Below, in pieces: positions 9,043 through 37,183 of a stretch of 64,000 nucleotides of DNA (its first letter is position 1; each line of letters opens with the position of its first letter). Made by a program: the position numbers and the translations under genes. This DNA is from Armatimonadota bacterium. Lineage in GTDB: Bacteria; Sysuimicrobiota; Sysuimicrobiia; Sysuimicrobiales; Sysuimicrobiaceae. Where the stretch lies: positions 124,001-188,000 of the forward strand of contig JANXCW010000002.1 of the NCBI GenBank assembly GCA_025059775.1. The letters are read 5' to 3'. Under the pieces are notes generated by a model. The model made no database searches and was not told the DNA's origin. It worked only from the letters and a program-made list of their open reading frames with translations.

Positions 9043-9395
9043 TCTTCGTCTTCGTCCTCGTCCTCGAAGTCGAACTCCTCTTCCTCCTCGTCGTCGAGGG
9101 GGAAGTCCTCTTCTTCCTCCTCGGGCTCCTCCTCGTAGTCCTCGAACTCGATCTCCACGTCCTCCTCCAGGTGCTCCACCACCCGGTTGAACTCGTCCTC
9201 GTCCTCCACAGGGACGAGGGTCTGGTCGTCCTCCACGCGGAGGATGCGGGCAGGACTATGGTCCTCCTCCCCGGCGGGAGCCACCACCACGTATTCCTGC
9301 CCGTCTACCTCCACGTACTCCAACACCGTGTATTCCTGCTCGTTTCCTTCCTCATCCGTGAGGGTGATGACCTCGTATTCCTCCCGCTTCGGCAC
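9039..9395 (-). CDS. DUF1292 (YrzB-like) acidic protein
   Basis: A 118-residue protein of the DUF1292 family, normally found between ruvX and mltG in Bacillota-type genomes. The N-terminal half carries the family pattern EVITLTDEEGNEQEYTVLEY and GQEYVVVAPAGEEDHSPA, then VEDDQTLVPVEDEDEFNRVVEHL. The last 45 residues are almost all Glu/Asp with scattered Phe. Relatives usually have a shorter tail, so the acidic extension stands out. No enzymatic motif is present; the function of the family is not established. A GAAGGAGGGG sequence precedes the ATG. The tail is encoded by GAG/GAC runs that look like a simple repeat on the plus strand. Confidence 0.88.
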   Translation of the reverse strand: MPKREEYEVITLTDEEGNEQEYTVLEYVEVDGQEYVVVAPAGEEDHSPARILRVEDDQTLVPVEDEDEFNRVVEHLEEDVEIEFEDYEEEPEEEEEDFPLDDEEEEEFDFEDEDEDEE

Positions 9396-9415
9396 GGAAA
9401 TCCCCTCCTTCTTAA

Positions 9416-9844
9416 CTAGGGAGTTGCAAGGCCTGACCCGGAACGACGCAGATACCCTTCCAGGATAAGGGCGGCGGCCACCCCATCCCGCAGCTCCCGG
9501 CGGCGGGTGGGAGCGTGGCCGCGGAGCACGTGCTCCGCGGCCACGGTGGTGAGCCGCTCGTCCCAGAACACCACCGGGACCCGAGTCCGACGGGCCAGGG
9601 CTTCCCCGAACCGGCGGGCGGCCCGCGCCATCCTTCCCTCTGTCCCGTCCATGTTCCGGGGGAGCCCCACCACAACGCGGGAAACACCCAACCGCACCAC
9701 CACCTCCGCGATGGCGTCCAGGATCTCTCGGGTGCTCCGACGCGGGAGGGTCCGGAAGGGCTGTGCGATGGTTCCGGTGGGGTCACTCACCGCCAGCCCC
9801 ACCCTCCGGGCTCCGAGGTCTACAGCGAGCACCCGTCCCCTCAC
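9416..9844 (-). CDS. ruvX: Putative Holliday junction resolvase / pre-16S rRNA nuclease RuvX (YqgF)
   Basis: A 142-residue RNase H-fold nuclease that finishes the 5' end of 16S rRNA and may also cut Holliday junctions. The first strand VLAVDLGARRVGLAVSD carries the catalytic Asp; VVGLPRNMDGTEG, FWDERLTTVAAEH and RELRDGVAAALILEGYL complete the active site. The start is GTG 9844, overlapping the alaS stop (GTGA). A longer frame of 19 extra residues inside alaS lacks family similarity and is rejected. Length is normal for the family. Confidence 0.93.
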   Translation of the reverse strand: MRGRVLAVDLGARRVGLAVSDPTGTIAQPFRTLPRRSTREILDAIAEVVVRLGVSRVVVGLPRNMDGTEGRMARAARRFGEALARRTRVPVVFWDERLTTVAAEHVLRGHAPTRRRELRDGVAAALILEGYLRRSGSGLATP

Positions 9845-12537: not shown

Positions 12538-12559
12538 GCGTTCACCTCTCTCCCATATA

Positions 12560-21036: not shown

Positions 21037-21389
21037 TGAAGATCCTCCCGGAGCACCGCACGGAGTTCTACGAATCTCGCCGCGCGGAGCCGGCGGACAC
21101 CCGACCATGCGATCCCCGCCACGCCCAGCACCGCGAGGAGGAACACGGTGAGGGCCGCGGCCCACACGGGAAGCCAGAGGGCGAGGATCAGGGTCACCAC
21201 CACGGGGGCGAACAGAACCGCCCCCGCCAGCAACGCGCCCGCTACCACCAGGAGCGCTAGACCGCTCACGGCCCGCCGCAGGACCACCTGCAGCTCGGAT
21301 CGCACAAGGACCGCATGCTGCTCTGCCAACTGCGCCAGGTCGTGCAGGAGGGCCCGGACCTCGTCCTGGAAACGGTACGTCACCCTCAC
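20982..21389 (-). CDS. Holin-X/DUF1469-like membrane protein
   Basis: A 135-residue protein with two adjacent long membrane helices (VSGLALLVVAGALLAGAVLFAPVVVTLILALWLPVWAAALTVFLLAVLGVAG spans about 40-95) flanked by amphipathic ends (LLHDLAQLAEQHAVLVRSELQVVLRR and FVELRAVLREDLQWIRDLL). This is the layout of the actinobacterial Holin-X/DUF1469 group, which, despite the name, are ordinary cellular membrane proteins of unknown role. It starts at GTG 21389, overlapping the ANTAR regulator stop, so it is translationally coupled to the two-component pair. Confidence 0.65.
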   Translation of the reverse strand: MRVTYRFQDEVRALLHDLAQLAEQHAVLVRSELQVVLRRAVSGLALLVVAGALLAGAVLFAPVVVTLILALWLPVWAAALTVFLLAVLGVAGIAWSGVRRLRAARFVELRAVLREDLQWIRDLLSALRESGPSAR

Positions 21390-21967
21390 ATCACTCCGTG
21401 CGCGGTGATGATGGCGCGGGCGATCTCCACCAACTTCCGGTTCTCCTTCTGGCTCTGCACCTGCATCCGGCGGAAGGCCTCCTGCTCGCTGATGCCGAGC
21501 CGTTTCATGAGAATCCCCTTGGCCCGCTCGATGAGCTTCCGGGCCTCCAGGGCCTCCCGCAAATCCTGCACCTCGTTCTGCAGCACCCGGAATTCCTCGA
21601 ACCGTTTCCGGGCCAGCAGGATGGCGGGGAGAAGGTCCTCCTCCGTCACGGGCTTCACCAGGTAAGCGAACACCCCCGTCTCCAGGGCCCGTTCCACCAG
21701 CTCCACTTCACTGTAGGCGGTGAGGAGGACGATGGGGATGGGACGGTGTTGGAGGATCCGCTGGGCTGCGGAGATGCCGTCCAGACCCGGCATCTTGATG
21801 TCCAGAATGGCGAGGTCCGGCTCCCGCTCCTGGGCCAGCCGCACCGCCTCCTCCCCGTCCGTGGCCTCCGCCACCACCTCGAACCCCAGGGAGCGCAGCT
21901 GGGTCCGCAGGGTCATGAGGCGGATGGCCTCGTCGTCCGCGATGAGGATCCGCAACCGCTCGCTCAT
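21386..21967 (-). CDS. Response regulator with ANTAR output domain
   Basis: A 193-residue regulator. The receiver domain (1-120) has D11, D12, the phosphoacceptor Asp 56 (LAILDIKMPGLDG), the Thr in LTAYSEVE, and Lys in YLVKPVTEED. A short coiled linker leads to an ANTAR domain (about 140-190: LIERAKGILMKRLGISEQEAFRRM). ANTAR domains bind paired hexanucleotide-loop RNA hairpins and prevent transcription termination, so this protein probably regulates at the RNA level. It is joined to its kinase by an ATGA overlap. The RNA target was not found in this window. Confidence 0.93.
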   Translation of the reverse strand: MSERLRILIADDEAIRLMTLRTQLRSLGFEVVAEATDGEEAVRLAQEREPDLAILDIKMPGLDGISAAQRILQHRPIPIVLLTAYSEVELVERALETGVFAYLVKPVTEEDLLPAILLARKRFEEFRVLQNEVQDLREALEARKLIERAKGILMKRLGISEQEAFRRMQVQSQKENRKLVEIARAIITAHGVM

Positions 21968-23121
21968 CGCCAAAACCGCACCTCCACCCTCGTCCCCTTT
22001 TGGCTCTCCATCCGGAAATCTCCCCGCAGATCCCGATAGACCAGATCCCGAACGATCCGGAGCCCCAGGTGGGCATCCCGCTCCGGGTCGAACCCCGGAG
22101 GCAGCCCCCGGCCGTCGTCCTCCACGGAGACCACCACCTCCGGGCCCCGAGCGTGTAGGGTGATGCGCACGTGCCCTCCCTGGCCGTTGAAGGCGTGCTG
22201 CACCGCGTTGGTCACGAGCTCGCTCAGGACCAGGGCCAGGCTGGTGGCCTGCTTGCTGGGCAGGAGCAGGTGCTCCCCCTCCACCTGGATGGACACCTGG
22301 TGTCCGGGTCCGGAGAGGTCCTGTACGATGGTCTCCCCGATGCGCTCCGCGAGCCGGTAGATGTCCACCTCCTCGATGTGCTCCACGCTCAGCATCTGGT
22401 GTACGGCCGCAATGCTCTTCACCCGCCCCATGCTGTGGCGAAGGCTCCGACGGGCCTCCTCCGGAGCGGAGAGGGCCTCCAGGTACAGGAGATCCGCCAG
22501 GGTCTGCAGGTTGTTCTTGATGCGGTGGTGCATCTCCTGGAGCAGGGTCCGCAGCTGGCGGTTGGTCTGCTCCAGCTCCTGCTCCCGCTGCCGGATGACC
22601 CGATCCCGGGCCTCCAGGTACGCTTGTCCTACGGCCAGCATCTGCACATCCACGGCCCGGTGGATGCGTTCCATGGCGAAGAGCACGTCCGGAGGGAACG
22701 CCACCCATAGCCGCTGGCTCAGCATGGCCTGTACCTGCGCGTCCACGCTGCTCCGCAGCAGGCTCATGGCCTGGAGGATCTCCTCCAGGCTGAAGTTTGA
22801 CTGCAGCTGCTGGGCCGCCACCCGATGGGCGTGCTCGTGGACCTGCTCCCGGAGGACCCGCTTCTCCTCCTCCCCTTCCGCCCGCAGAACCCGGACCAGG
22901 AGCCGCAGGGTCTGGTTCCCCCACTCCTCCGCGAGGTCGGGGAAGCAGGCATATCGTGGGACCCGCCGATGGAGATCCTGCGTCCACCGCCGCAGGATGC
23001 CCGGATTGGCATGTTCCAGGTGGGCCGCGGTGGTGCGAACCGCAAACCGCACCATGCCCTCCCGGAGATGCCGGAAGGGCGCAGCCACCCGATGCAGGAA
23101 ACCCCTGAAGGACCACACCAT
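21964..23121 (-). CDS. Histidine kinase, HisKA_2 type, partner of the ANTAR regulator
   Basis: A 385-residue soluble kinase without membrane helices. The N-terminal half (about residues 15-135) resembles the RsbRD N-terminal sensor fold (GILRRWTQDLHRRVPRY). A coiled coil leads to the phosphoacceptor box MHHRIKNNLQTLADLL (His 199) and an HATPase_c domain with LVTNAVQHAFNGQGG and EDDGRGLPPGFDPERDAHLG. HisKA_2/ANTAR pairs typically respond to small molecules such as nitrogen sources. A TACACT box at 23132-23137 lies only ten bases before the ATG, suggesting a nearly leaderless message. The longer frame upstream overlaps the polyprenyl synthase gene and is discarded. Confidence 0.9.
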   Translation of the reverse strand: MVWSFRGFLHRVAAPFRHLREGMVRFAVRTTAAHLEHANPGILRRWTQDLHRRVPRYACFPDLAEEWGNQTLRLLVRVLRAEGEEEKRVLREQVHEHAHRVAAQQLQSNFSLEEILQAMSLLRSSVDAQVQAMLSQRLWVAFPPDVLFAMERIHRAVDVQMLAVGQAYLEARDRVIRQREQELEQTNRQLRTLLQEMHHRIKNNLQTLADLLYLEALSAPEEARRSLRHSMGRVKSIAAVHQMLSVEHIEEVDIYRLAERIGETIVQDLSGPGHQVSIQVEGEHLLLPSKQATSLALVLSELVTNAVQHAFNGQGGHVRITLHARGPEVVVSVEDDGRGLPPGFDPERDAHLGLRIVRDLVYRDLRGDFRMESQKGTRVEVRFWR

Positions 23122-23159: not shown

Positions 23160-24128
23160 CTAGCGGTCCCGGACGAGGACGAACTCCGTGAGGCCGATGA
23201 GGCTTTCGCGCGCGGGCGCGGCTGGAAGTGCCTGGAGCGCCTCCAGGGCCCGTTCCGCGTGCCGACGAGCCGCTTCCCGGGCGTAGGCGAAGGAGCCGTA
23301 CCGCACCAGCTCCTGGCGCAATTCCTCCACGTCCCCCTCCTGGATGAGGTGCACAAGACGCGCCCGGTCGCCGTCCCGGGCGTGTCGGAGGGCGTGGATG
23401 AGGGGGAGGGTCATCTTCCCCGACCGGATGTCGCTGCCGATGGGCTTTCCCAGAGTCTTGGGATCGCTCAACAGGTCTAGGGCATCGTCCGTGATCTGGA
23501 AGGCGATCCCCCAGTGGAGGCCGAACCGGTCCAGCCGCTCTGCCACCGCGTCCTCCGCCCCCGCCAGGAGGGCTCCGCAGGCACAGGCGGAGGCGATGAG
23601 CCGCGCGGTCTTCCCCTCCACAATGCGGAAGTAGATCCCCTCCTCCGTGTGCGGGGTGTTCCCGTACCGGATCTGGAGGATCTCCGCCTGGCTCATGGAA
23701 ACCGTGGCGAGGGACATGCGGTTTGCCACCGCCGCCCGGCCGATGCGGGAGAGCAGGTGGAAGGACTTGGCGAACAGGTAATCCCCCAGCAGCACCGCCA
23801 CCTGGTTGCCCCACCGGGCGTTCGCGGTGGGCTCCCCCCGACGCAGGGGGGATTCGTCGATGATGTCGTCATGGATCAGGCTCGCCACGTGGATGAGCTC
23901 CACCGCCGCCGCCAGCGCCAGGCTCTCCGCGGGAGGCTCTCCCACGGCCCGGGCACTGAGGAAGGTGAGGGCGGGACGGAGGAGCTTGCCCCGGGTCTGG
24001 AGGACATGGGTCACCAGCTCCTGGATGAAGGGATCGTCCGCCCGCAGCTCCTCAGAGAGCAGCTGCAGGAGGGCCTCCAGGTCCTCCCGGACCGGTTGGT
24101 AAAGGGTTTCCAGAGAACGTGTGGTCAT
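23160..24128 (-). CDS. Polyprenyl diphosphate synthase (heptaprenyl/octaprenyl type)
   Basis: A 322-residue all-trans prenyl chain elongase, likely making the side chain of menaquinone. The two aspartate-rich motifs are intact: SLIHDDIIDESPLRRG (first DDxxD) and AFQITDDALDLLSDPKTLGKPIGSD (second DDxxD). TRGKLLRPALTFLSA and IVEGKTARLIASACA are also typical. Small residues before the first motif fit a long-chain product; the exact chain length cannot be read. The start is ATG 24128, overlapping the upstream cytochrome gene (ATGA), so quinone side-chain synthesis is coupled to the respiratory cluster. Confidence 0.92.
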   Translation of the reverse strand: MTTRSLETLYQPVREDLEALLQLLSEELRADDPFIQELVTHVLQTRGKLLRPALTFLSARAVGEPPAESLALAAAVELIHVASLIHDDIIDESPLRRGEPTANARWGNQVAVLLGDYLFAKSFHLLSRIGRAAVANRMSLATVSMSQAEILQIRYGNTPHTEEGIYFRIVEGKTARLIASACACGALLAGAEDAVAERLDRFGLHWGIAFQITDDALDLLSDPKTLGKPIGSDIRSGKMTLPLIHALRHARDGDRARLVHLIQEGDVEELRQELVRYGSFAYAREAARRHAERALEALQALPAAPARESLIGLTEFVLVRDR

Positions 24129-24697
24129 CGGGATGAAGGGGCTCCCAGCTGCCGGATGTACGCCACCAGCGCCCAGATCTGTTCGTCCCTGAGAGCCCCG
24201 AAGGCCGGCATCCCGCTGCGCCGGGGGGTCTCTGCCAATCCGTGCTTGATGACCCAGAAGGTGGCGCCCGGAGGCATCCGTTCCTGAAACGCGCGGGCGT
24301 GGAAGTTTATGGGCTTGGGGTTCAGGGTAGCGCCCGCGGGGCCGTCTCCCCGGCCCTCCGGACCGTGGCAGACGGCGCACAGGGTCGCGTACTGCTGCCG
24401 CGCAGACTCCAGGGCCGCGGGACTCACGGAAGGCATACGGTTGTCCCGGGCATCCGGAGGGACCACCGCGAGGATCCCCTCCACCTGCTCGCGTCCGTCC
24501 TCCACCGGACCCGCGGCGATGCCGGCCACGCCCGGGATCGTGCGGGCCACGGGCCGCACCTCCGGTGCCACAAGACCTCCCGTCACGAACAGGTAAAGGA
24601 CCGCCCAGATGGGGAGGAGGGCATAGAGCAGGAGCAGGGGTGTGGGAAGCCGCTCCCCTCGCCCCGGGCGTTCTGGCCTGGACGCTTGCTCGGCCAT
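24125..24697 (-). CDS. Membrane-anchored monoheme cytochrome c
   Basis: A 190-residue protein: one N-terminal membrane helix (about 20-42, LLLLYALLPIWAVLYLFVTGG), a linker, then a class I cytochrome c domain with the heme site CAVCH at 107-111 and the axial methionine in RRSGMPAF (M163). The domain is close to those in CcoP or alternative cytochrome units that hand electrons to an oxidase or receive them from a bc complex. It is the last gene of the respiratory cluster, seven bases after the CcoO-like gene. It would face outward, like the other c-type cytochromes here. Confidence 0.9.
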   Translation of the reverse strand: MAEQASRPERPGRGERLPTPLLLLYALLPIWAVLYLFVTGGLVAPEVRPVARTIPGVAGIAAGPVEDGREQVEGILAVVPPDARDNRMPSVSPAALESARQQYATLCAVCHGPEGRGDGPAGATLNPKPINFHARAFQERMPPGATFWVIKHGLAETPRRSGMPAFGALRDEQIWALVAYIRQLGAPSSR

Positions 24698-24704
24698 CCT
24701 TCCT

Positions 24705-25172
24705 TCACCTCAGGCTTAGAAGATACGCCACCAGGGCCTGTAGCTCCGCCTCCGAAAGGTACGCGTAGGCAGGCATACGGCTCCCCGGCGATCGCCGTCG
24801 TGGTTCCCGCAGCAGGCGTAGGAGCTCCTCCGGATCCCTGATCCGGCTCGCAACCCGCGCGAGATCCGGACCGATCCGCACCGTCCCCAGAGCCGTGGGG
24901 TTCAGGTGAGCGTAATCCCCTGCCCGGGAGACCTCCCCGAGGTCTCCGCTTCGGGCCACCACCCCGAATCTGGCCTCCGGGGTCCGCACCTGCTGGGTGT
25001 GGCACTGGGCGCACCCCTCCCGGAGGTATACCGCGTAGCCCAGCAGCTGGGCACTCGTCAGCGTCCGGGTCGCCCTTGCAGGGGGGGTGGCCGGGAGCAG
25101 CACCGTGGCCACGAATCCGGCCAGGGCCGTAACCAAACACAGTAGGGGGAGGGAAGCGGCGCGCCTCTGCAT
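24705..25172 (-). CDS. CcoO-like monoheme cytochrome c
   Basis: A 155-residue protein with an N-terminal membrane anchor (SLPLLCLVTALAGFVATVLL) and one heme c domain. GYAVYLREGCAQCHTQQVR is very close to the signature of CcoO, subunit II of cbb3 oxidases; C54, C57 and H58 bind heme and SRMPAY (M133) supplies the sixth ligand. True CcoO is about 200 residues or more, so this one is shortened. It directly follows a CcoN-family gene, as in cco operons, but that neighbour lacks catalytic ligands. The protein therefore may be an electron carrier of the bc-type complex rather than of an oxidase. Confidence 0.85.
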   Translation of the reverse strand: MQRRAASLPLLCLVTALAGFVATVLLPATPPARATRTLTSAQLLGYAVYLREGCAQCHTQQVRTPEARFGVVARSGDLGEVSRAGDYAHLNPTALGTVRIGPDLARVASRIRDPEELLRLLREPRRRSPGSRMPAYAYLSEAELQALVAYLLSLR

Positions 25173-25183
25173 CCTGAAATCCT

Positions 25184-26575
25184 CTACACCGCAAGCACCA
25201 AGTCCCGCTCCGCCGCGGGAACCTCCGCTCCGGAGTCTACGGTGAGGAAGACGTTCCAGCAGAACACCACCTGCCCGCAGGCCACGAGCCCGCAAGCCAG
25301 GGACCGGGCCACCAGATACGGAACCACCGCGTTCACACCGTGGCTGAAGGGCACGGTGCCCGTGGCCCACACCGCACCCTGCACGAGGCCCGCCGTGGAG
25401 AGGGACACCACCGCGAGAAACCACCCCACCGTCCACATCCAGAAGTGCCACCACGCAAGCCGGGGGCTCACCAGCATCCGGCCGACGGCGGCGGGGATCA
25501 CAGTGTAGGCGGCCCCCAGGGCCACGGACCCCGCGCCCGCGCCCAACAGCAGCGCTGTCCGGGCTTCGGACCATAGGGTGAGGCCCGCCACCCAGGCGGG
25601 GCCGAGCAGGGCGTTCAAGCCCGCAGCGAGGGCTCCGAAGAGGAACCCGGCGCAGCCCACGGGGAAGAAGGCCAGCCCGGGGGACTCCACGAGCCTGATC
25701 CATCGCCCTTCCAGGGCCTGCCATATCCCCGCGGCGGTGCTGGCCGCGGGGATCAGCAGGAGGAAGGTAGCCACCGCGCCCAGGGTCTGGACCCAGAAGG
25801 GAACCGGTCCCCAGATGAGCTCCGAGCCGGCACTGAAGGGGGCGAACGCCGCGGTGGTGAGGAGAACCACCAGGGCCAGGGGCGAGTTCCCCTCCCCCGG
25901 GTTCGGCCGACCGCCCACGAGGGTCAAGGCCACCGCGGAGGCTGCAGCAAACAGCCACATCCACCCCAGCCCCTGCCGCAGGAACGCCTGGCTTAAGGCG
26001 TCAACCACCCCCCAGTAGGGGTTCCCCCCCGGCGTGAAGAGCCCCTTGCCGAGCACCAGGACCACCACGAGCCAGGTCAACGCGCCCACTCCGAGCCATA
26101 CGGCGGGCTCCCCGCGTTTCCCCACCCGCACGGTCCGCACAAGACTCAACAGGACAAGAAGCGCGGCGGCAAGGCGCAGGAGGTCTGCACCCGGAGGCGC
26201 CTCCCCCCACAGCCGACCCCGGGAAGCCCCCCGCAGGAGGGCCCACTCCGCCAGGAGCTCCGCCAGGTTCCACAGCCAGAACGCCAGATTCGCCAGGCGT
26301 ACGCCCCACAGGGGCTCCCGAACCACGGATGGGACGATGGCCAGCAGGGCACCCAGCAGGAGGTTGGTGCAGAACCCGAAGATCCAGAGGTCTACCGCCG
26401 CCGCCTTCAACCGACCGTAGGAGAGCCACGAAACGCCCTCGAAGATTCCGGGGAACACCAGGTGGAGGCTTGCGGCGAGCTCGTGCAGCGCGGCCAGAGC
26501 GCCCCAGGCGGTTCCCAAGTACAGGAAGCGGCGAGAGGGACTCCAGGGTTCGTCCGGGAACATCCAGCTCAGCAT
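25184..26575 (-). CDS. CcoN-family protein lacking all heme/copper ligand histidines
   Basis: A 463-residue protein with about 12 membrane helices and clear cbb3 subunit I (CcoN) ancestry: SWLSYGRLKAAAVDLWIFGF matches the CcoN helix II region, PRLAWWHFWMWTVG matches its WHFW segment, and VVPYLVARSLACGLVACGQVVFCWNVFLTV matches its end. Only four histidines remain (31, 38, 377, 412). The low-spin heme histidine in helix II is Ala/Val (KAAAVD), the copper-site His-His region reads PFSAGSELIWG, and the GHVHSGA heme-ligand region reads LTLWSEARTA. It therefore cannot bind heme b, heme b3 or CuB in the known way. It is probably a structural or quinone-binding subunit. The ATG at 26575 lies right after the 39-residue membrane peptide. 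Confidence 0.8.
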   Translation of the reverse strand: MLSWMFPDEPWSPSRRFLYLGTAWGALAALHELAASLHLVFPGIFEGVSWLSYGRLKAAAVDLWIFGFCTNLLLGALLAIVPSVVREPLWGVRLANLAFWLWNLAELLAEWALLRGASRGRLWGEAPPGADLLRLAAALLVLLSLVRTVRVGKRGEPAVWLGVGALTWLVVVLVLGKGLFTPGGNPYWGVVDALSQAFLRQGLGWMWLFAAASAVALTLVGGRPNPGEGNSPLALVVLLTTAAFAPFSAGSELIWGPVPFWVQTLGAVATFLLLIPAASTAAGIWQALEGRWIRLVESPGLAFFPVGCAGFLFGALAAGLNALLGPAWVAGLTLWSEARTALLLGAGAGSVALGAAYTVIPAAVGRMLVSPRLAWWHFWMWTVGWFLAVVSLSTAGLVQGAVWATGTVPFSHGVNAVVPYLVARSLACGLVACGQVVFCWNVFLTVDSGAEVPAAERDLVLAV

Positions 26576-26695
26576 CTACGTCTCCGCCACCAAACCGAAG
26601 GATGCCACGAACAGCAACAGCAGGAAGAAGGCGATCCAGAAGAGGGTGTACCACAGATAGCTGCGCAGCGTCCGCGGATTGAACCGACCGATCAT
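26576..26695 (-). CDS. 39-residue single-helix membrane peptide
   Basis: MIGRFNPRTLRSYLWYTLFW, then a hydrophobic stretch IAFFLLLLFVASFGLVAET and a stop. It has a basic N-terminus and one membrane helix. It overlaps the upstream MvhD-like gene by four bases (ATGA), and its stop is adjacent to the CcoN-like start codon. Such tightly coupled peptides usually are small subunits of respiratory complexes (compare CcoQ/CcoH or CydX by size only). No sequence family is recognised. Confidence 0.65.
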   Translation of the reverse strand: MIGRFNPRTLRSYLWYTLFWIAFFLLLLFVASFGLVAET

Positions 26696-27132
26696 CGCTT
26701 CCCTCCTGCGGGGAGGAGGCTCCGGAGCTTCTCCACGAAATCCCGGACCGCGGCCACGAACGCCTCCCGATCGTGGAGGCCGTAGGCGAAGAAGGCCACC
26801 CTCTGGGGGTCTACCCGCTGGCGCTGCAGCCGCTTGCGCAGCTGGTCAATGCGACCCTCCATGATCCAGTTCCCCTCCCGGTTCAGACAGTCGCCCATGG
26901 GGCACCCGCACACGAAGGTCCCCGCGGCCCCGCTGCGCAGCGCCAGCTCCAGCCAGGCGGGCCGCACAAATCCGGAACACGGCACCGCGATGAGGGTCAC
27001 TTCCGGGCAGTCCCGCATGGTGCCGTCCGGATTCAACAGCCCATCACCGGATACCGCCCAGTCGCACAGGAACCCCACCACCCGGAGGGCACGCTCCGGT
27101 TCCGTACGGTCCGTCACCTGCGGCTGCGCCAT
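26692..27132 (-). CDS. MvhD/FrhD-type iron-sulfur electron-transfer protein
   Basis: A 146-residue soluble protein of the methyl-viologen-reducing hydrogenase delta family, which carries a [2Fe-2S] cluster and normally passes electrons to heterodisulfide-reductase-type complexes. Family features are VVGFLCDWAVSGDG (C23), LIAVPCSGFVRPAWLELALRSGAAG (C52) and the cluster motif VCGCPMGDCLNREGNW (C75, C77, C82). No hydrogenase, formate dehydrogenase or HdrA is nearby. Instead it follows a cytochrome b with a fused two-cluster ferredoxin domain by 18 bases. It probably docks to that domain and moves electrons between the membrane complex and a cytoplasmic donor or acceptor. Confidence 0.85.
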   Translation of the reverse strand: MAQPQVTDRTEPERALRVVGFLCDWAVSGDGLLNPDGTMRDCPEVTLIAVPCSGFVRPAWLELALRSGAAGTFVCGCPMGDCLNREGNWIMEGRIDQLRKRLQRQRVDPQRVAFFAYGLHDREAFVAAVRDFVEKLRSLLPAGGKR

Positions 27133-27150
27133 GGCTCCTCCTTCATCCCT

Positions 27151-28320
27151 TCATCCTGCGGGGACCGGGGCTCCCGCGGCCTGTCGGATCCGCTCCTGGA
27201 TATCCCGTTCCAGCACCCGCGGAAGCTCGAGGGCCTGGAAGGGGCACGCCCCGATGCAGATCCCGCACTCCACGCACCGGGAGTCCACCACCACCGCCAG
27301 CAGTTTCCGGTTTGCCGCGGCCCGGGTCTTCCCGGGATAGGGACTGGGCACCATGTAGATGGCGTTGTACGGGCAATCGTAGTAGCACAGCTCGCACCCC
27401 GTGCAGTTGTCCTCCACCACCACCGCAACCCCGGGGGACCGGGGGACCCGATGGGGGTCATCGGGAAGGGAGTACGGGATCCACAGGCCGTACACGAGGA
27501 GCGCCATGACCAGCAGAAATGCCCACCCCGGTGCCACCCAGCGGGCCAGCACGTAGGGCCAGAGGTAGAACCAATCCACCGCGAACCCCTCCGGCTGCGC
27601 GCCTGGGGCCGCGGGCCGGCCGCTGGTGGCTGGGAGAACCGCGGCGAGGAAGAACAGCAGCCCCACGCTGAAGAGGACCCACAGGGCCGGTGGCCACACC
27701 TTGGGGTGACGGATGCGGACGTAGTGCCACCACAAGAGGATGTACAAGGTCAGGGCGGGGCCCACGTGGAGGAAGAGGAACCGGGGGAGGGTGGTATCGC
27801 TCACCCCCGGACCGCCCAGGAACAACCGCACCAGGTGGTCCCCCACCAGGGGGACGTCCCGAAGGGCCTGGACGGTCAGGCTCGCCAGGAGCTGGCTGCG
27901 CTCGTCCCACACCAGCAGATACCCCGTAAAGCCCGCCAGCCCGCTGACGATCAGGAGGAACATCCCGGAGATCCAAGCGGAGTCCCGGGCCTTGCGGTAG
28001 CGCTCCGTGAACCAGTTCCGGAAGAGGTGCAGCAGGATGGCCACCATGAAGGCATCCGCCGCGTACCGGTGAATTCCCCGGAAGATCACCCCGTACGGCA
28101 CCTGATCCGTGAGGAACTGCACGGAGGCGTACGCACCCTCCAGGCTCGGCTCGTAGTACAGGAAGATCAGGATGCCGGAGATCACGAGAACGGTCAGGAA
28201 AAGGTTCGCGAGCCCTCCCGTGTAGTACAGGGGGTTGAAGTCCTGCGGGTAGATCCGCTGGATCCACCGGTCCAGCCGCAGGGTCCAGTCCTGCAGCTTC
28301 AGGATCGCCCTCCGGTACAC
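27151..28320 (-). CDS. Cytochrome b fused to a C-terminal 2[4Fe-4S] ferredoxin domain
   Basis: A 389-residue membrane protein. Residues 30-290 form a cytochrome b/b6-type domain with both heme pairs intact: H84/H98 in helix B (RGIHRYAADAFMVAILLHLF) and H185/H199 in helix D (FLHVGPALTLYILLWWHY). The quinol-site motif corresponding to PEWY is degenerate (VDWFYLWPY). Residues 300-365 add two CxxCxxCxxxCP motifs (CTGCELCYYDCP, C306-C316; CVECGICIGACP, C349-C359) for two [4Fe-4S] clusters on the cytoplasmic side. This fusion plus the following MvhD-like protein gives the complex an exit or entry for low-potential electrons. Starts with ATG, four bases after the next gene upstream. Confidence 0.88.
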   Translation of the reverse strand: MYRRAILKLQDWTLRLDRWIQRIYPQDFNPLYYTGGLANLFLTVLVISGILIFLYYEPSLEGAYASVQFLTDQVPYGVIFRGIHRYAADAFMVAILLHLFRNWFTERYRKARDSAWISGMFLLIVSGLAGFTGYLLVWDERSQLLASLTVQALRDVPLVGDHLVRLFLGGPGVSDTTLPRFLFLHVGPALTLYILLWWHYVRIRHPKVWPPALWVLFSVGLLFFLAAVLPATSGRPAAPGAQPEGFAVDWFYLWPYVLARWVAPGWAFLLVMALLVYGLWIPYSLPDDPHRVPRSPGVAVVVEDNCTGCELCYYDCPYNAIYMVPSPYPGKTRAAANRKLLAVVVDSRCVECGICIGACPFQALELPRVLERDIQERIRQAAGAPVPAG

Positions 28321-28324
28321 CGCC

Positions 28325-28762
28325 TCACTCCTCCCGTGCGGTCATGCTGGATCTCCGGAACAGCAGCACCAGGAAGGAGTACAGCATGAGCAGCACCCCC
28401 ATGGCCCCGGCGCTCACGAGCCGGTGATCCGTGAGTTCTCCGTACACCATGGCCCCCACAGAGGCGAGGGAGGCGAGGCTCAAGAGGGTGATGCCGCGGG
28501 CAGAGCCCCGCTGTCCCGCCCCCCGGGACAGGATGCGCTCGTAGAGCCCGATCCGACGCCGCACCCGACCCGCCCGCCGGTCCGCGGCATACATCACGAG
28601 CCCCGCACCCAGGAAAGCCCCCACCACCAGGGCACTCCAGCCCACCGCCCGGATCCAGGAACCCGGATCCGTCTGGCGGATCGCCACCCGCCACCCCGAC
28701 CACGCCTCCGGGAGGGCCAGGACCGCGGCGACGAAAGCCAGGAGGAACACGAGCCGCTGCAC
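28325..28762 (-). CDS. Four-helix membrane protein of the respiratory cluster
   Basis: A 145-residue protein starting at GTG 28762, overlapping the upstream cytochrome b stop region by three bases. Predicted helices lie near residues 3-18, 38-58, 90-108 and 115-135, with a basic loop RRAGRVRRRIGLYERILSRG between the second and third. No cofactor motif is visible. It sits between two cytochrome b genes and is probably an accessory subunit or assembly factor of the complex; the family is unknown to me. Confidence 0.6.
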   Translation of the reverse strand: MQRLVFLLAFVAAVLALPEAWSGWRVAIRQTDPGSWIRAVGWSALVVGAFLGAGLVMYAADRRAGRVRRRIGLYERILSRGAGQRGSARGITLLSLASLASVGAMVYGELTDHRLVSAGAMGVLLMLYSFLVLLFRRSSMTAREE

Positions 28763-28764
28763 CG

Positions 28765-29925
28765 CTACGCTCCCGAACTCGGTGCGGGCCGCGCCGCCAC
28801 CGCCGCCCTGGGCGCGGGCCTGGGCATGGCTGCCTCCGCGGCCCGCACCTTCCGGCGGTACCGGACCTCCAGCACAAACCCCAACGTGAGGGTGAGGGCG
28901 GTGAGGACGAGCACGATGTGGGGATCCCGACCGATCACCGCGATGTTGAACAGGATGAGGGCGGTGAAAACCAGGAAGTAGGTGAGGGCCATGATCCCCA
29001 CCACGGTGAAGAAGGGCCGCTCGCTGGGGCGCCGTCCCTTGCTGCGATCCAGGAAGGGCACCAGCATCCCATAGGCGATGAGCAGCCCCGGGCCCAGCCC
29101 CGCCCACAGAGGCGGGGTGTACTTCACGTACTGGTACAGGGCCAGGAAGTACCAGTCCGAGAGGATGGGAAGCGGCGTGCGGTTGGGGTCTGCCCGCCGC
29201 CCCATCTCCGCGGGAAAGATCCAGCTGGTGACCACCAGCATCACCAGCAGGATCACCAAAGCGGTGGGCGAGAGGTTGAAGCGCTTGCGGCGAGTGAAGA
29301 GGAAGTACAGCTCCACCAGGATGAGCAGCAGCACGGAGATCCCGAAGTGGATGGCGTAGAAACGGGTGAGGGTCCCCTGTCCCTCCGCGGGCCCGCCCAG
29401 GAACGCGAAGGCGATGGCGCTGCCGAACCGGGTCTGCCCGATGAGGGGAAGCTGATCCAGGTAGACAGCTACGGTGAGGACCACCTTCGCGGCCCAGAAG
29501 GCCCGCTGGTTCCAGATCAGCAGGTACCCCGTGAGCCCGGAGATCATGGCCAGTACCAGGGAGCCGAACAGGATCATCCAGCTGAGCTCATTGGGCCGCT
29601 TGTACTCCCCCAGGAAGTACATGCGGTAGATGCGGAGGGTGATGGCGATGATGAGCATGTCCGCGCCGTACTTGTGCATTCCGCGGATGAGCCAGCCCAA
29701 GGGGATCTCGTGCTGGATGCGGAGAATGGAGTTGTAGGCGCCGTGGGTGGTGGGCTCATACCAGATCATGAGGAGGACGCCGCTTGCGATCACCACGATC
29801 CAGGAGAAGTACACGATCTGGCCCAGCAGGTAGAGGGGATTGTCGTAGCGCTCCACGTTGGTCTCGTCGAAGAGATCCAGCTTCTGCTTGCGCTCGCTGA
29901 ACCACTCCCGCAGGCGCTCCCACAT
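28765..29925 (-). CDS. Cytochrome b of a bc complex with one heme-ligand pair missing
   Basis: A 386-residue cytochrome b with both the b6-like and subunit IV-like parts and a Pro/Ala-rich tail. Helix B reads RGMHKYGADMLIIAITLRIY: H84 is kept, but the position 14 residues on is R98. Helix D reads FYAIHFGISVLLLILVELYF: H193 is kept, but the partner position is Tyr 207. One pair (H84/H193, the high-potential-side heme in known structures) remains; the other pair is lost. The PEWY equivalent is SDWYFLALYQ. It follows the Rieske gene by two bases, as in petABC/qcrABC operons. I infer it carries a single heme b. Confidence 0.85.
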   Translation of the reverse strand: MWERLREWFSERKQKLDLFDETNVERYDNPLYLLGQIVYFSWIVVIASGVLLMIWYEPTTHGAYNSILRIQHEIPLGWLIRGMHKYGADMLIIAITLRIYRMYFLGEYKRPNELSWMILFGSLVLAMISGLTGYLLIWNQRAFWAAKVVLTVAVYLDQLPLIGQTRFGSAIAFAFLGGPAEGQGTLTRFYAIHFGISVLLLILVELYFLFTRRKRFNLSPTALVILLVMLVVTSWIFPAEMGRRADPNRTPLPILSDWYFLALYQYVKYTPPLWAGLGPGLLIAYGMLVPFLDRSKGRRPSERPFFTVVGIMALTYFLVFTALILFNIAVIGRDPHIVLVLTALTLTLGFVLEVRYRRKVRAAEAAMPRPAPRAAVAARPAPSSGA

Positions 29926-29927
29926 GG

Positions 29928-30599
29928 CTAGGCGATCCCTCCCGGCTCCACCGCGGTCACCACGATCACCTCGTTGCGGACCTCATAGACGAAGTAGCGG
30001 GGAGGCCGCGGCGCGGGTCCGGAGAGCACCCGCCCCGGGAGGTCCCGGTCCGCGGGGTCGTAGATGGAGAGATGGCACGGGCAGCCCAGCAGCCCGTGCC
30101 GGCGCTCCGGAGGAGGCATGTAGCCACCGTACCCCGCCGTGATCTCCCGCCAGTCCGGCACGTAGTTGAAGATGCAACCCAGGTGCGGACAGATGCGGGA
30201 GAAGACCACGATGTCCGTGGGTTCCTTCCCCTCCCGGTAGCCTGGGAAGCGCACCTTCCACGGGAGCTTGATGGCCACACCCGGTACCGTGAAGGCCCGC
30301 GCCTGCTCCGGGGTGTACTGGGGGTATTTCTGGGTGAACACGAAGAACTTGCTGGACCAGGGTTCTGAGAGCTCCTCCACCCGGGCAATCGGGAGCGGTT
30401 CCCCCCTCGGCAGGTCCCCTTCGATCAGATCCGGCGGAAACCTCCCCTGCGGCACGCCGAGACCAGGATCCAGATTTGGCTTGAGGTAGCGCAGGAGCGG
30501 TGCCGCGAAGGCCGCGAGGGCTCCGAGGGCGGGAATGGAGGCCACCACCTGCAGGAAGGTCCGCCGGTTGACATCCTTTGCCTTCTGCTCCTCCGCCAT
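29928..30599 (-). CDS. Rieske [2Fe-2S] protein of the bc complex
   Basis: A 223-residue protein with a twin-arginine signal anchor (DVNRRTFLQVVASIPALGAL, basic pair at 12-13) and a Rieske fold. Cluster ligands are CPHLGC (C137, H139, with C142 forming the disulfide) and CPCHLSIYD (C173, H176, with C175). A long insert with YGGYMPPPERRHG precedes the second box, as in some bacterial and archaeal Rieske proteins. ATG 30599 is chosen over GTG 30608, which would overlap its own ribosome-binding site. It would oxidise quinol at the outer site and pass electrons to the diheme cytochrome encoded just before it. Confidence 0.93.
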   Translation of the reverse strand: MAEEQKAKDVNRRTFLQVVASIPALGALAAFAAPLLRYLKPNLDPGLGVPQGRFPPDLIEGDLPRGEPLPIARVEELSEPWSSKFFVFTQKYPQYTPEQARAFTVPGVAIKLPWKVRFPGYREGKEPTDIVVFSRICPHLGCIFNYVPDWREITAGYGGYMPPPERRHGLLGCPCHLSIYDPADRDLPGRVLSGPAPRPPRYFVYEVRNEVIVVTAVEPGGIA

Positions 30600-30614
30600 G
30601 CTCCCCACTCCTCC

Positions 30615-31481
30615 TCACCGGAGATCCGCGGGCAGGTCGTACACGAAGGTCCACAGGTAATCTACCACGGCCCAGATCTCATGTGGGCGGAGCTCGTCCC
30701 GGAACGCGGGCATGAGGCGCAATCCCCGGCGTTCCACGCCCTCCGCGATGCGCTGGTAGAGCTCCGTGGGTTTCCGGTAGGCCATCCACTCCCGATCCGT
30801 GAAGATCCCGGGCCCTACGCCCCGCGCCCAGGTCCATACCAGTCCCCGGAACTCCTCCGCCCGGGGGCCTTTCCCATCCCCCAGGACCCCGTGGCACTCC
30901 GCGCACCGCTGTTGGTAGATACGCCGGCCCAGCTGCAGCTGCTGCCGGGTGGTGGTCCGGCTCCACCCCCAGAACACCACGTTCCAGATCTCCTGATCCG
31001 ATAGCCTCGGGGTCCCGCCGTCCACGGCCCCGTACGCGGGGTGCTGGAACCCAGGCATGGCGGTGTGCGGGCGGCCCCGGGCCACGGTCTCGAACATGGA
31101 GAAGGGGGTATTCAGCCGCATCTGGTCGAGGTTATGGAAATTGGCGGGCCGGGAGGGCAGAGGCTCTGCCCGGGGACGGATCCGGAAAAAGCTCAGGAAG
31201 TCGGTGTAGAGGTTCTTCTCGGGTGCGGTGAGGGTCCTCGCCATGGGCCCGTCTCCCCGGCCCTGGGGCCCGTGGCAGACCGCGCATCGGGCATCGTAGA
31301 CCCGCTTCCCCGCGTCCGCGTTGGGCTTGCGGGGCATGAAGCCCATCCGGACCACATAGCGGGGAAGGGGTTCGTACGCGGGTCCCCGGGGCCCTGCCAT
31401 CCGCACGAACGGCTGGCAGCCCACGAGCAGCACCGTGGCGAGACCGAGGAGGAGGACGCGCACAGCGACCGGTCGGTTCAT
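30615..31481 (-). CDS. Lipoprotein diheme cytochrome c
   Basis: A 288-residue protein with a lipoprotein signal (VRVLLLGLATVLLVGC, lipid cysteine 22) and two class I heme domains: CAVCH at 66-70 with M142 (HTAMPGF), and CAECH at 193-197 with M257 (LRLMPAF). It is the first gene of the respiratory transcription unit and stands in the place of cytochrome c1. It would sit on the outer face of the membrane and take electrons from the Rieske protein. The start ATG 31481 is 84 bases downstream of the inferred transcription start. Confidence 0.92.
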   Translation of the reverse strand: MNRPVAVRVLLLGLATVLLVGCQPFVRMAGPRGPAYEPLPRYVVRMGFMPRKPNADAGKRVYDARCAVCHGPQGRGDGPMARTLTAPEKNLYTDFLSFFRIRPRAEPLPSRPANFHNLDQMRLNTPFSMFETVARGRPHTAMPGFQHPAYGAVDGGTPRLSDQEIWNVVFWGWSRTTTRQQLQLGRRIYQQRCAECHGVLGDGKGPRAEEFRGLVWTWARGVGPGIFTDREWMAYRKPTELYQRIAEGVERRGLRLMPAFRDELRPHEIWAVVDYLWTFVYDLPADLR

Positions 31482-31571
31482 CGTCTCAGATTCCCGCTCT
31501 TGCCCGCGGTCTCCTTCCGGGAAGACGCAAAAGGGCAGGACCGGCGCGGCCCCGCCCTCAAGGCCACCGGC

Positions 31572-31600
31572 ATTGTCCAACCTTTCTGGGGATCCGTCAA
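31572..31600 (-). promoter_or_regulatory. Sigma-70-type promoter of the respiratory operon
   Basis: On the minus strand TTGACG (31595-31600), a 17-base spacer and GACAAT (31572-31577), five and four matches to consensus with ideal spacing. It overlaps the stop codon of ccmE and points into the 115-base gap before the diheme cytochrome gene. The remaining gap holds a G+C-rich stretch (GGGCGGGGCCGCGCCGG) that could form a hairpin in the leader. It makes the respiratory genes at 24.1-31.5 kb an independently transcribed unit. Confidence 0.6.
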
Positions 31601-34197: not shown

Positions 34198-35763
34198 CTA
34201 GGAGGGGGAAATCAGCCGGTCCTGGAGGACCCGCCGCAGCGCTTCCCCGTCGAAGAGGAAAAAGGGGTACCCGCGATAGGTGGCCGCCGCGTACGCGGTC
34301 TCCTGCGGCTCCAACCGAGCCAGGGCCTCCCGAACCCGTTGGATCTCCTCCGCGAGCGGAGCGCTGAGCTCCTGATTGATGGCCCGGATCCGGTGGGTAA
34401 GCGCGCGGCGCTCCCGGCGGGTCAGGGAACCTTCCTGCAGTCGTCGGATAATCCCCCATTTCTCCTCCACCAGGCACTGGAGGTGGGGGTCCTGGGGTTC
34501 CAGGAACCGGTCGGGATTGTGCAGGAGTTCATACAGCCGCTGTTGGAGGCGGGCTCGCTGCGAGCCCGGATCCTCCGGGCTTGGCAGCGGCAGGTGGAAG
34601 GTGGCGGTGACCACGGCAAAGGAGGGAGGGTCCAGGGCAAACAGGTTACGGATCAGCTGGTCCGTGGCACGGTCGTAGAGGGCACCCCCGACCCCGTGGA
34701 CGAAGAGGTCCGCCACGCACACCCGCACGAACAGGGTGAGGGCCATGCCCCGCGGTCGGAAGGCTTCCTCCGCGAGGGCCTCGGGGGGCGTGTGGGGGCT
34801 GATCCGTACGAGCTCCTCTTCCGTGGAGAGGACCACCCCTCCCCTGGTCCGGCGTGCGAACACCGGCCGTCGCCTTCCCGCCCGCACGGTCCACAGGGGG
34901 AGCTCGTAGCAGCCCGACTGCCGCCGCAGGTTGGGGAACGGCTGGGCCGAAGACCGGATCCCCTCGGCCCTGCGGTGGGCCTCCAGGGCCTCGTTGTACG
35001 CGGCCCAGAAGGATTCGCAGGAATCCGCCATCCATCGAACGAACCGCAGGAACCCCCGGGTCCGGCACAGCCACGAGACGGGGAGCTCCGGGTATGCGGG
35101 AGCCGGCTCGAAGGCACGCCGGAGGCGTGCCACGAACTCCCCCAGGTTCTCGCACGCCTCCCGTTCCCGCTCGCCGAGCGCGCTCAACCGCTCCAGACCC
35201 CTGAGGAGCTCCGGACGGTCCAGGGTCGCGAGATCCTCCCCAATCGCCTCGATCCACTTCCGCCACTGCCCCTGGGTGGGCGGCGGTGTCGCCTCGAAGG
35301 GGACATCGGATGGACACCGCACGAGGACGCGGTGCACGGTTCGCAGCTCCCCGTTCCGTCGGGGCACCGCCACATCCAGCACTTCCACCGCGTCGCTGTC
35401 TACGATGAGGTTCAGGGTTCGAACTCCCGGGCACAGGTCCAGCACTAGGTTCTTCACCCAGATCCCCGGGTGATAGAAGACGGGCTGGTGGCCGGTGACC
35501 ACGAGCGGTCCCAACTCCCCCCCCGGACGAAGGCCCCACCGGCGGCCGAAATGGGCTGCGGCCATGAGGACCTCCTCCCGGACCGCCCGACGGAATGCGC
35601 CCAGGGGTTCCCCGTCGAGGAGGGCGGAGCTGCGGTTCAGATTCGCCGCGTTCTCCTCCGCCACCGCCTGCCAGCAGGGAAGGGGGGGAATACACACCAC
35701 CTCCCCAGAGCCCCGGGGAATGCCGGGTGTGGGAATCTCCGCCTGCGGACGGTCCATCCTCAC
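34198..35763 (-). CDS. Uncharacterised protein, possibly distantly BshC-like
   Basis: A 521-residue soluble protein. Landmarks are VVTGHQPVFYHPGIWVKN near residue 88, LIVDSDAVEVLDVAVPRR, an Arg/Glu-rich helical middle, RPRGMALTLFVRVCVADLFVHGVGGALYDRATDQ, and an acid/base-rich coiled end with YRGYPFFLFDGEALRR. The GHQP and GVGGALYD segments recall positions in BshC, the cysteine-adding enzyme of bacillithiol synthesis, and it is coupled to an LmbE/BshB1-type deacetylase by a GTGA overlap. But the overall pattern is closer to a little-studied family seen in other phyla, so I do not assign the reaction. Start GTG 35763 or ATG 35757. Confidence 0.45.
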   Translation of the reverse strand: MRMDRPQAEIPTPGIPRGSGEVVCIPPLPCWQAVAEENAANLNRSSALLDGEPLGAFRRAVREEVLMAAAHFGRRWGLRPGGELGPLVVTGHQPVFYHPGIWVKNLVLDLCPGVRTLNLIVDSDAVEVLDVAVPRRNGELRTVHRVLVRCPSDVPFEATPPPTQGQWRKWIEAIGEDLATLDRPELLRGLERLSALGEREREACENLGEFVARLRRAFEPAPAYPELPVSWLCRTRGFLRFVRWMADSCESFWAAYNEALEAHRRAEGIRSSAQPFPNLRRQSGCYELPLWTVRAGRRRPVFARRTRGGVVLSTEEELVRISPHTPPEALAEEAFRPRGMALTLFVRVCVADLFVHGVGGALYDRATDQLIRNLFALDPPSFAVVTATFHLPLPSPEDPGSQRARLQQRLYELLHNPDRFLEPQDPHLQCLVEEKWGIIRRLQEGSLTRRERRALTHRIRAINQELSAPLAEEIQRVREALARLEPQETAYAAATYRGYPFFLFDGEALRRVLQDRLISPS

Positions 35764-36443
35764 AGCAGGGCATCCAGGGTTCGTAGGCCCACCTCCTCCC
35801 GCATCACGAAGGGCTCCGCATACGCCACCCCCACCAGGGCGCCGAAGTAGGCGGCAGAGGTACGGAGGGGATCCAGGATCCAGAGGGTTCCCCGTTCGTC
35901 CTCGAACTGGCTGCGGTAGGCGGCCACGCTCTCCAGCTTACGCTCGAAGGTCTCCGTCACGTCCACGAGGAACGAGGGGCGCCGCACCATCCGGTAGTGG
36001 GTGGAGAAGTAGTGGATCACCCGGCGCGGGTAATAGGGCTCTCCGGGAATGTCGGACTTGGTGAGTTTGGCGTAGAACCGGGCGGCCTCCCCGAGCTGCG
36101 CCGCCTGGACGTGGTCTGGATGCGCATCCTCCCAGTACGGTACGAACAGCAATTCCGGCCGCACCTCCCGGATCACCGCCGCCACCTGTTTGCGGGCCTC
36201 CACGGTGTCCAGGAGGAACCGGTTGGGGAGATCCAGAAGGATGCGGCGTACTCCTAGGATGTCCGCGGCCACCGCCGCCTCCCGGAGCCGCCGCTCAGGC
36301 GTGCCCCGGGGCGTGGGCTCACCGTTGGTGAGGTCGCAGACCACCACCGTCCACCCCTGGCGAACCAGGAGGGCCACGGTTCCCCCCATCCCGATCTCCG
36401 CGTCGTCCGGGTGCGGGCTCAGCACCAGGGCCCGGCGGTTCAT
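35760..36443 (-). CDS. LmbE/PIG-L family deacetylase (BshB1-like)
   Basis: A 227-residue zinc-dependent N-deacetylase. Metal and catalytic motifs are clear: LVLSPHPDDAEIGMGGTVALL (HPDD) and WEDAHPDHVQAAQL (HPDH). LDLPNRFL and RRVIHYFSTHYRMVRRPSFLVDVTETFERK are typical of BshB1, which removes acetyl from GlcNAc-malate in bacillithiol synthesis. The start ATG 36443 overlaps the upstream glycosyltransferase stop (ATGA). No BshA glycosyltransferase is adjacent, so the substrate may be GlcNAc-malate or another GlcNAc conjugate made by the neighbouring enzyme. Confidence 0.8.
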   Translation of the reverse strand: MNRRALVLSPHPDDAEIGMGGTVALLVRQGWTVVVCDLTNGEPTPRGTPERRLREAAVAADILGVRRILLDLPNRFLLDTVEARKQVAAVIREVRPELLFVPYWEDAHPDHVQAAQLGEAARFYAKLTKSDIPGEPYYPRRVIHYFSTHYRMVRRPSFLVDVTETFERKLESVAAYRSQFEDERGTLWILDPLRTSAAYFGALVGVAYAEPFVMREEVGLRTLDALL

Positions 36444-37183
36444 CTCCTGCGCTCCTCTCCCGCGCAGACCGCGGATTCTACCCGGTGCAGCCACCGCTGC
36501 ACGGCGCGGTGCAGCACCTCCCGGTAGTACCGCAGCCGCACCTCCGGGTCCTCGAGCCCCCCCAAAAACCGGCGCGCGGGATTCCTGTAGATCCGGCCGA
36601 TGGGGATCTCCCGGACCCGCAGCCCCAACGCCGCGGCCTGCACCCAGATCTGCAGGGGCATCCCGTAGGAGGGCTCGTCCAGTTCCAGTTTCCGGATGGC
36701 CTCCGCCCGGTACGCCTTAAACCCGCAGAAGGCATCCGTAATCCCAAGCCCCGTGAGCCGGTTCACCTCCTCTGTGATCTCCCGGTTGATGCGCCGCCGA
36801 TCCGGCGGCGGATCCTGACCCCGGGAGGAGCCGGGAAGGTAGCGGCTCCCGGAGACGATGTCCACCCCCTCCAGGGCGCTCACCAGATCCGGAATAAGAT
36901 AGGGCTCATGCTGCTCGTCGCAGTCCATGGTCACCACCACGTCGCAGCCGTGCTCCAGGGCGTAGTGGAACCCTGTGATGAGGGAGGCCCCGTATCCGCG
37001 GTTTTCCGCATGGCGGATCACCCGCACCTCCGGGAACCGGGCCAGGATCCCCGGGGAGCCATCCGTGCTTCCGTCGTCCACCACCAGGATGTCCGCGGCG
37101 GGCGCATACTCCCGCACCGCCCGCAGTACCCCCTCCAGGGTCTGCTCCTCATTGTACAAGGGCATGACGATGAGGACCCTCAT
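36440..37183 (-). CDS. Family 2 glycosyltransferase (polyprenyl-phosphate mannosyltransferase-like)
   Basis: A 247-residue soluble GT-A enzyme. Seen are VLIVMPLYNEEQTLEGVL, ILVVDDGSTDGSPGI, HAENRGYGASLITGF and the metal site region VVTMDCDEQHEP, all as in DPM1/GtrB-type transferases that charge polyprenyl phosphate with a sugar. No C-terminal membrane helices are present. It stands between hemL and the deacetylase gene with four-base overlaps on both sides. Its link with the deacetylase hints at a modified GlcNAc product, but this is inferred from position. Confidence 0.85.
   Translation of the reverse strand: MRVLIVMPLYNEEQTLEGVLRAVREYAPAADILVVDDGSTDGSPGILARFPEVRVIRHAENRGYGASLITGFHYALEHGCDVVVTMDCDEQHEPYLIPDLVSALEGVDIVSGSRYLPGSSRGQDPPPDRRRINREITEEVNRLTGLGITDAFCGFKAYRAEAIRKLELDEPSYGMPLQIWVQAAALGLRVREIPIGRIYRNPARRFLGGLEDPEVRLRYYREVLHRAVQRWLHRVESAVCAGEERRR

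Follow-up and report, generated by a model that had tools for sequence, protein, structure and literature searches.

A conserved Rieske/cytochrome b complex with an apparently divided cytochrome b in Sysuimicrobiota and a second bacterial phylum

A 64,000-nucleotide window (contig C2, positions 124001-188000) of the 2.35 Mb draft genome of a bacterium of the phylum Sysuimicrobiota (CSP1-3), coded G000, carries a row of ten minus-strand genes, here called C1 to C10. The genes run from 31481 to 24125 with gaps of -4 to 18 nt and zero internal stops, and include those for a Rieske protein (C2), two cytochromes b (C3 and C5), the second with a fused ferredoxin domain, and an MvhD-type iron-sulfur protein (C6). 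They encode a Rieske/cytochrome b complex that is real, conserved and undescribed in the searchable literature, with a naturally divided cytochrome b: the work of one cytochrome b appears, from the residues that each protein retains, to be shared between the two unlike ones.

Both C3 and C5 are homologous to cytochrome b6 (E about 1e-34 and about 1e-29, respectively), and their residues were read against the chloroplast-type b6 of PDB 6rqf and our own alignments. C3 has kept its site for heme bL, with His84 and His193 invariant in 31/31 sequences, and has lost that for heme bH. At position 98, where b6 has a bH ligand, C3 has an arginine in all 31 sequences, and the corresponding position in helix D is Y, F, L or M instead of histidine. 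Glu205, near this helix D position, is invariant in the phylum (31 sequences); the pairing is suggestive, and an Arg98-Glu205 salt bridge may take the place of the heme. The quinol oxidation (Qo) site of C3 reads TPLPILSDWYFLALY, in which S256-D-W-Y is invariant in the 31 sequences.

The losses in C5 are complementary to those in C3. Its four heme ligands, H84, H98, H185 and H199, are invariant in 32/32 sequences, whereas the stretch corresponding to the Qo site is degenerate and variable (VDWF, LDVF, LDFL). The full set of four histidines for bL and bH is thus found in C5 and not in C3, and a Qo motif of the PEWY or PDWY type is found in neither. The cysteine that would bind heme ci is also absent from both: position 33, near Cys35 of b6, is L, I, A, T or S in C3 and Y or F in C5. 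Since C5 has an even number of transmembrane helices, as judged from hydropathy, its C-terminal ferredoxin domain probably lies on the bH side of the membrane, together with MvhD.

The complex is widespread in the phylum. C3 was found in 39 of the 43 genomes (three of the 39 being fragments) and C5, at high score, in 37. The four genomes without the complex all belong to one genus, g10, in which COX1 gave no match either. In gene maps of 36 regions, the genes follow each other as C1-C2-C3-C4-C5-C6-C7-polyprenyl synthase as far as the contig permits, with C1 and C7 syntenic and C7 also conserved; only families f1, f3 and f7 have C8-C10, which there separate C7 from the synthase. The earlier note on this DNA had proposed that the genes form one unit and had named their scattering in close relatives as the result that would speak against it; the synteny bears the proposal out. 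The named relatives with C5 proteins 56-80% identical to that of the window are Armatimonadetes/ANGP1-type bins. The ratio of nonsynonymous to synonymous substitution rates (dN/dS) within the genus is 0.06 for C3, the most constrained protein of the unit, and 0.08 for C5.

In a sample of other bacteria, one outlier with a C3-type protein was found, G151, which belongs to a group of four genomes in a second phylum. Its operon (L148) contains every module of the complex on one strand: CcoN, a CcoO-cytochrome c fusion, C1, C2, C3, C4, C5, C6 and C7. The C9-type domain is thus fused to the C10-type domain in this phylum. Two further members, G291 and G292 (L177:1-6712 and L178), have a CcoO-c-type gene, C1, C3, C5 and C6 in a row, so that C1 occurs in both operon types, and G291 also has a CcoN-like gene, split over two frames and apparently partly degenerate. 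C3 in the second phylum likewise has arginine at the bH position, and C5 its four histidines; the Qo motif of C3 in G291 and G292 is ADWY. No intact operon examined, in either phylum, lacks the ferredoxin domain or MvhD. This conservation across two phyla rules out chance as the source of the gene set.

No C3-type cytochrome b was found outside Sysuimicrobiota and the phylum of G151, either in the other genomes sampled or in 400 genomes of the phylum of G243. The next-best cytochromes b of other bacteria keep the bH histidine and nearly all have PEWY, and those that were checked are canonical. A scan of named genomes for C5, made with narrow patterns that may miss divergent versions, found it in Sysuimicrobiota, along with distant deltaproteobacterial fusions that come without the rest of the complex. 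These cytochrome b-ferredoxin proteins (loci L091-L107) are C5-like, with 32-38% identity, but longer (about 510 aa), and neither C3 nor a Rieske protein nor MvhD was detected nearby. In a maximum-likelihood tree, all C3 proteins form one clade (100/99) and all C5 proteins, including the deltaproteobacterial fusions, another (98/94). Each clade spans two phyla; the C3/C5 pair is old, and was either inherited or transferred together.

As an observation in its own right, the deltaproteobacterial fusions of about 510 aa are encoded in a small, conserved cluster of genes (L092, L095, L104 and L107, around 6400-14700), together with proteins of about 505 aa, about 275 aa (with an N-terminal signal-like segment) and about 217 aa, and at most loci also a protein of about 730 aa with one CxxCH.

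The Rieske protein C2 has both of its cluster motifs intact (CPHLGC and CPCHLSIYD), and the ligands C137, H139, C142, C173 and H176 are invariant in 30 sequences. Of the hydrogen-bonding residues that raise the potential of the cluster, Ser178 is present in 30/30 and Tyr180 in 29/30. C1, the diheme cytochrome c, would occupy the position of cytochrome c1 or f and accept electrons from the Rieske protein. C6 has the four conserved cysteines (23, 52, 77 and 82) expected of [2Fe-2S] proteins of the MvhD/FlpD family (PF02662). HdrA is the protein with which MvhD usually works, but an HdrA-like match was found in only 12 of the 43 genomes, including the four that lack the complex, and the copy in the window's genome is broken up; HdrA being absent from most genomes with the complex, the idea that MvhD is an obligatory shuttle to HdrA was rejected. 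Separately, some genomes of the set encode a giant HdrA2-type flavoprotein with a C-terminal MvhD domain, beside genes resembling those for 2-oxoacid:ferredoxin oxidoreductase (L142:1339-4643, equivalent to G000:C1:99350-102636, where C1 is a contig; and L144:9225-12623). Its reading frame is uninterrupted in G036 and G041 and split into several in G000, through frameshifts or an assembly error.

These features suggest that C3 and C5 form a heterodimer at the core of a Rieske/cytochrome b complex with divided labor, which carries out quinone-based bifurcation with an iron-sulfur outlet instead of a quinone reduction (Qi) site. We put the probability of this reading at slightly above one half (roughly 0.55). 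Menaquinol would be oxidized at the Qo site of C3. The first electron would pass through the Rieske protein to C1, and to C9 and C10 in operons that have them, and would finally reach a terminal oxidase. The second would go to bL of C3, where the route to bH is shut; because C3 lacks the bH ligands, this electron could leave only through C5, by crossing the dimer, first to bL of that subunit and then to its bH. From there, the ferredoxin domain and MvhD would lead it out, on the cytoplasmic face, to an acceptor of low potential, for which ferredoxin, flavodoxin, NAD(P)H and HdrA are candidates. The uphill branch would be driven by the downhill one to oxygen. The earlier note had already seen in these genes a quinol-oxidizing core with a cytoplasmic iron-sulfur branch. 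The sequences fit that view, and the complementary losses in C3 and C5, which the note does not mention, strengthen it.

Two published results bear on whether such a scheme could work. When one half of Rhodobacter bc1 has an inactive Qo site and the other half is knocked out at bH, turnover continues via bL-bL transfer (PMC4330944). For Kuenenia, it has been argued that menaquinone, together with both potential-raising residues in the Rieske protein, lets the potential of bL fall far enough for NAD(P) to be reduced (PMC12954380). The window's genome and most of the phylum have menA, as expected of menaquinone organisms, and the same combination of quinone and Rieske residues fits energetics that would favor bifurcation. 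It is a more tentative conclusion, at somewhat under even odds, that the complex is a natural bifurcase in which an obligatory bL-bL transfer feeds the ferredoxin/MvhD outlet, yielding low-potential reductant from menaquinol during aerobic respiration, and that it was formerly joined to a cbb3-type oxidase.

Several points weigh against bifurcation. The association of C3 with C5 is, like the direction of flow and the final acceptor, inferred from sequence, and the AlphaFold2 monomer model of C3 was poor (pLDDT 59) and was left unused. A gene for a soluble acceptor is missing from the operon, and the scarcity of HdrA among genomes with the complex counts on the same side, as does the lack of a Rieske gene in the operons of G291 and G292. 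Furthermore, if this were the main complex III of the cell, low-potential electrons would be produced 1:1 with electrons to oxygen, which would need a large sink or a return path to the quinone pool.

This last point touches on how the cell respires. The complex holds the sole Rieske/cytochrome b pair found in G000, and no alternative complex III, which would need two NrfD-type subunits with a multiheme cytochrome c, was seen there; one candidate, a weak NrfD match with zero multiheme cytochromes c nearby, was rejected. The complex therefore presumably also serves aerobic respiration, which keeps alive a rival: a C3-C5 heterodimer that runs a split Q-cycle, in the manner of an ordinary complex III. 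From the Qo site of C3, electrons would then travel over the two bL hemes to reach bH of C5, and menaquinone would be reduced at a Qi site of that subunit. The ferredoxin domain and MvhD would, in this case, let electrons in sideways from reduced ferredoxin, supplied for instance by 2-oxoacid:ferredoxin oxidoreductases, or would act as a regulatory tap. As the only such complex found in this genome, and one that co-occurs with COX1, being missing only in genus g10, it must sustain net respiration; C5 keeps its bH and could serve a Qi site, and G000 encodes an apparent 2-oxoacid:ferredoxin oxidoreductase, as read from its sequence. However, this explanation leaves the retention of the ferredoxin domain and MvhD in the operons of two phyla unaccounted for, and neither cytochrome b has the heme ci cysteine. 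It is considered rather unlikely.

Two other explanations are more doubtful still. The electron path is reversible in principle, and members of the phylum have been described as possible sulfide and nitrite oxidizers (PMC11604079). During growth on reduced inorganic compounds, for instance, electrons of low potential, from ferredoxin via MvhD and C5, and of high potential, from cytochrome c, might jointly reduce menaquinone at the quinol site of C3. Such confurcation is improbable, since forward flow to oxygen is indicated both by the operon's cbb3-type module and by the terminal oxidases that co-occur with the complex. Linkage in an operon is also no proof of assembly by itself, and C3 and C5 could belong to two separate complexes, with C3 degenerate or forming a one-heme homodimer. 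The complementary losses, conserved in two phyla, make this a poor fit: a homodimer without bH would have no exit for the bL electron, as the bH-knockout controls in Rhodobacter indicate (PMC4330944), and C3 is the most constrained protein of the unit. We regard it as a distant prospect.

The CcoN-family protein C8 has a different standing from the core. Its ligands were scored against CcoN of P. stutzeri (3mk7_A). In the window, 0/6 histidines remain and the active-site tyrosine is also lost, so C8 lacks what defines a cbb3 oxidase. In the second phylum, the G151 protein has 6/6 plus the tyrosine; within Sysuimicrobiota, G012 of family f3 has 2/6, those of families f1 and f7 have 0/6, and the operons of the other families are without C8 altogether. 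The protein is nevertheless under purifying selection (dN/dS 0.18 within the genus, compared with 0.06 for C3). On this sequence record, C8 is an optional, non-catalytic relic of a cbb3-type oxidase subunit that was once part of the unit, and is probably kept as a scaffold for C9 and C10. The earlier note had described a dead CcoN as a subunit of the complex. The protein is indeed ligand-less, but it is not constitutive, as it is missing from most families, and its origin can now be made more specific: it is the decayed form of a subunit that is still intact in the second phylum.

The features of the unit are collected in Table 1, with families assigned by Pfam and NCBIfam. These assignments agree with the earlier ones, and all ten named proteins are present in one co-directional unit.

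Table 1. Genes and other features of the unit, in order from C1, with window positions
Feature	Position	Strand	Basis
C1, diheme cytochrome c lipoprotein	30615..31481	-	Pfam Cytochrom_C and CBB3; two CxxCH; lipobox LLVGC
C2, Rieske [2Fe-2S] protein, twin-arginine-like signal	29928..30599	-	ligand motifs; Pfam weak, E=0.006
C3, cytochrome b, Qo-type motif SDWY, heme bL ligands, bH ligands lost	28765..29925	-	alignment to b6 of 6rqf
C4, small membrane protein, 145 aa	28325..28762	-	relatives with two open reading frames here
C5, cytochrome b with C-terminal ferredoxin domain (two 4Fe-4S motifs)	27151..28320	-	Fer4 Pfam matches
C6, MvhD/FlpD [2Fe-2S] protein	26692..27132	-	PF02662 E=5e-24; PDB 5odc_D E=1e-17
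C7, single-transmembrane protein, 39 aa, C-terminal SFGL(V/I)AE motif	26576..26695	-	synteny, conservation
C8, CcoN-family protein, 0/6 His ligands	25184..26575	-	alignment with 3mk7_A
C9, CcoO/FixO-like monoheme cytochrome c	24705..25172	-	PF02433 E=4e-21
C10, membrane-anchored monoheme cytochrome c	24125..24697	-	PF13442 E=5e-13
Polyprenyl synthase	23160..24128	-	PF00348 E=8e-72
Weak sigma-70-like match upstream of C1	31572..31600	-	TTGACG-17-GACAAT, 9/12

The start of the polyprenyl synthase gene overlaps the stop of C10 by 4 nt, and the unit thus runs on into it. Although the gene adjoins the complex throughout the phylum, its product is a neighbor rather than a subunit and likely serves to make the quinone side chain. 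At the other end, C1 is preceded on the same strand by ccmE, a ccmC-like gene and a fused ccmA-ccmB, with ccmE ending 115 nt before C1. A promoter of its own, as had been suggested for the unit, is conjectural: the lone sigma-70-like match is at chance level (1 observed, 0.8 expected). The start of the diheme cytochrome c gene, previously placed at 31580, is corrected to 31481. Both of the small membrane proteins that had been listed are present, but C4, which has no Pfam or NCBIfam match, is a fusion of two small transmembrane proteins that are encoded by separate genes in most relatives and other families.

Other genes in the window were also noted. The gene at 21386-21973, downstream of the polyprenyl synthase, encodes a response regulator that carries an ANTAR domain, of the RNA-binding antitermination kind; an apparent histidine kinase precedes it. 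At 34198-36494, a PIG-L deacetylase gene lies beside an open reading frame of 521 aa without a Pfam match. We take the latter to resemble BshC, in which case the two might form a bacillithiol pair.

The full-text literature was searched for Rieske with MvhD/FlpD and cytochrome b, for heterodimeric or single-heme cytochromes b, and for complex III of CSP1-3, and no published description of this complex was found in it, in keeping with the earlier view that the gene set has no described counterpart. The paper on Sysuimicrobiota mentions neither Rieske nor cytochrome. A "heterodimeric cytochrome b" in a Nitrospira paper was rejected as a precedent, as the term refers there to cytochrome bd.

The crossing of electrons between the two bL hemes has been debated on the basis of engineered mutants, and the natural ligand pattern found here seems to make this step obligatory. 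If bifurcation is indeed what the complex does, it would add to the Kuenenia proposal an independent second way in which a Rieske/cytochrome b complex can draw low-potential reductant from menaquinol, and it could explain how ferredoxin-level electrons are obtained during oxygen respiration in a phylum reported to fix CO2. The series from 6/6 through 2/6 and 0/6 ligands to absence of the gene is, moreover, an unusually clear record of the dismantling of an attached oxidase.

The complex shares its parts with several known systems. C3 and C5 are related to the cytochromes b of b6f and bc1 complexes, which also have Rieske and cytochrome c partners, but here there are two unlike cytochromes b, one without bH and the other without a Qo motif. 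C6 belongs to the same family as MvhD of MvhADG-HdrABC, with its four cysteines conserved (PDB 5odc_D), while the partners in that system, the hydrogenase and HdrABC, are absent from this operon. C8 aligns over nearly its full length with CcoN of cbb3-type oxidases and C9 with CcoO, and an intact CcoN is present in the G151 operon; however, CcoN has six histidines and a tyrosine, none of which remain in C8. The Kuenenia stuttgartiensis complexes (Kuste4569-4574 and Kustd1480-1485; PMC12954380) have likewise been proposed to bifurcate menaquinol through iron-sulfur clusters to a cytoplasmic low-potential acceptor, and a high-potential Rieske protein is common to both. Unlike the present complex, they have a homodimeric b6-type cytochrome b with both hemes plus cN, an NAD(P) oxidoreductase and multiheme cytochromes c, and lack MvhD, a ferredoxin-fused b and a split of the hemes; the operon described here has no NAD(P) oxidoreductase subunit, only the ferredoxin domain and MvhD. 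A parallel in layout is provided by the engineered Rhodobacter bc1 fusions (G158W in one half and H212N in the other; PMC4330944), in which one cytochrome b is without bH and Qi and its partner without Qo, and bL-bL transfer is the only link, as it would be in C3/C5. Those are laboratory point mutants, whereas C3 and C5 are two naturally diverged genes, with a ferredoxin domain and MvhD added on the bH side.

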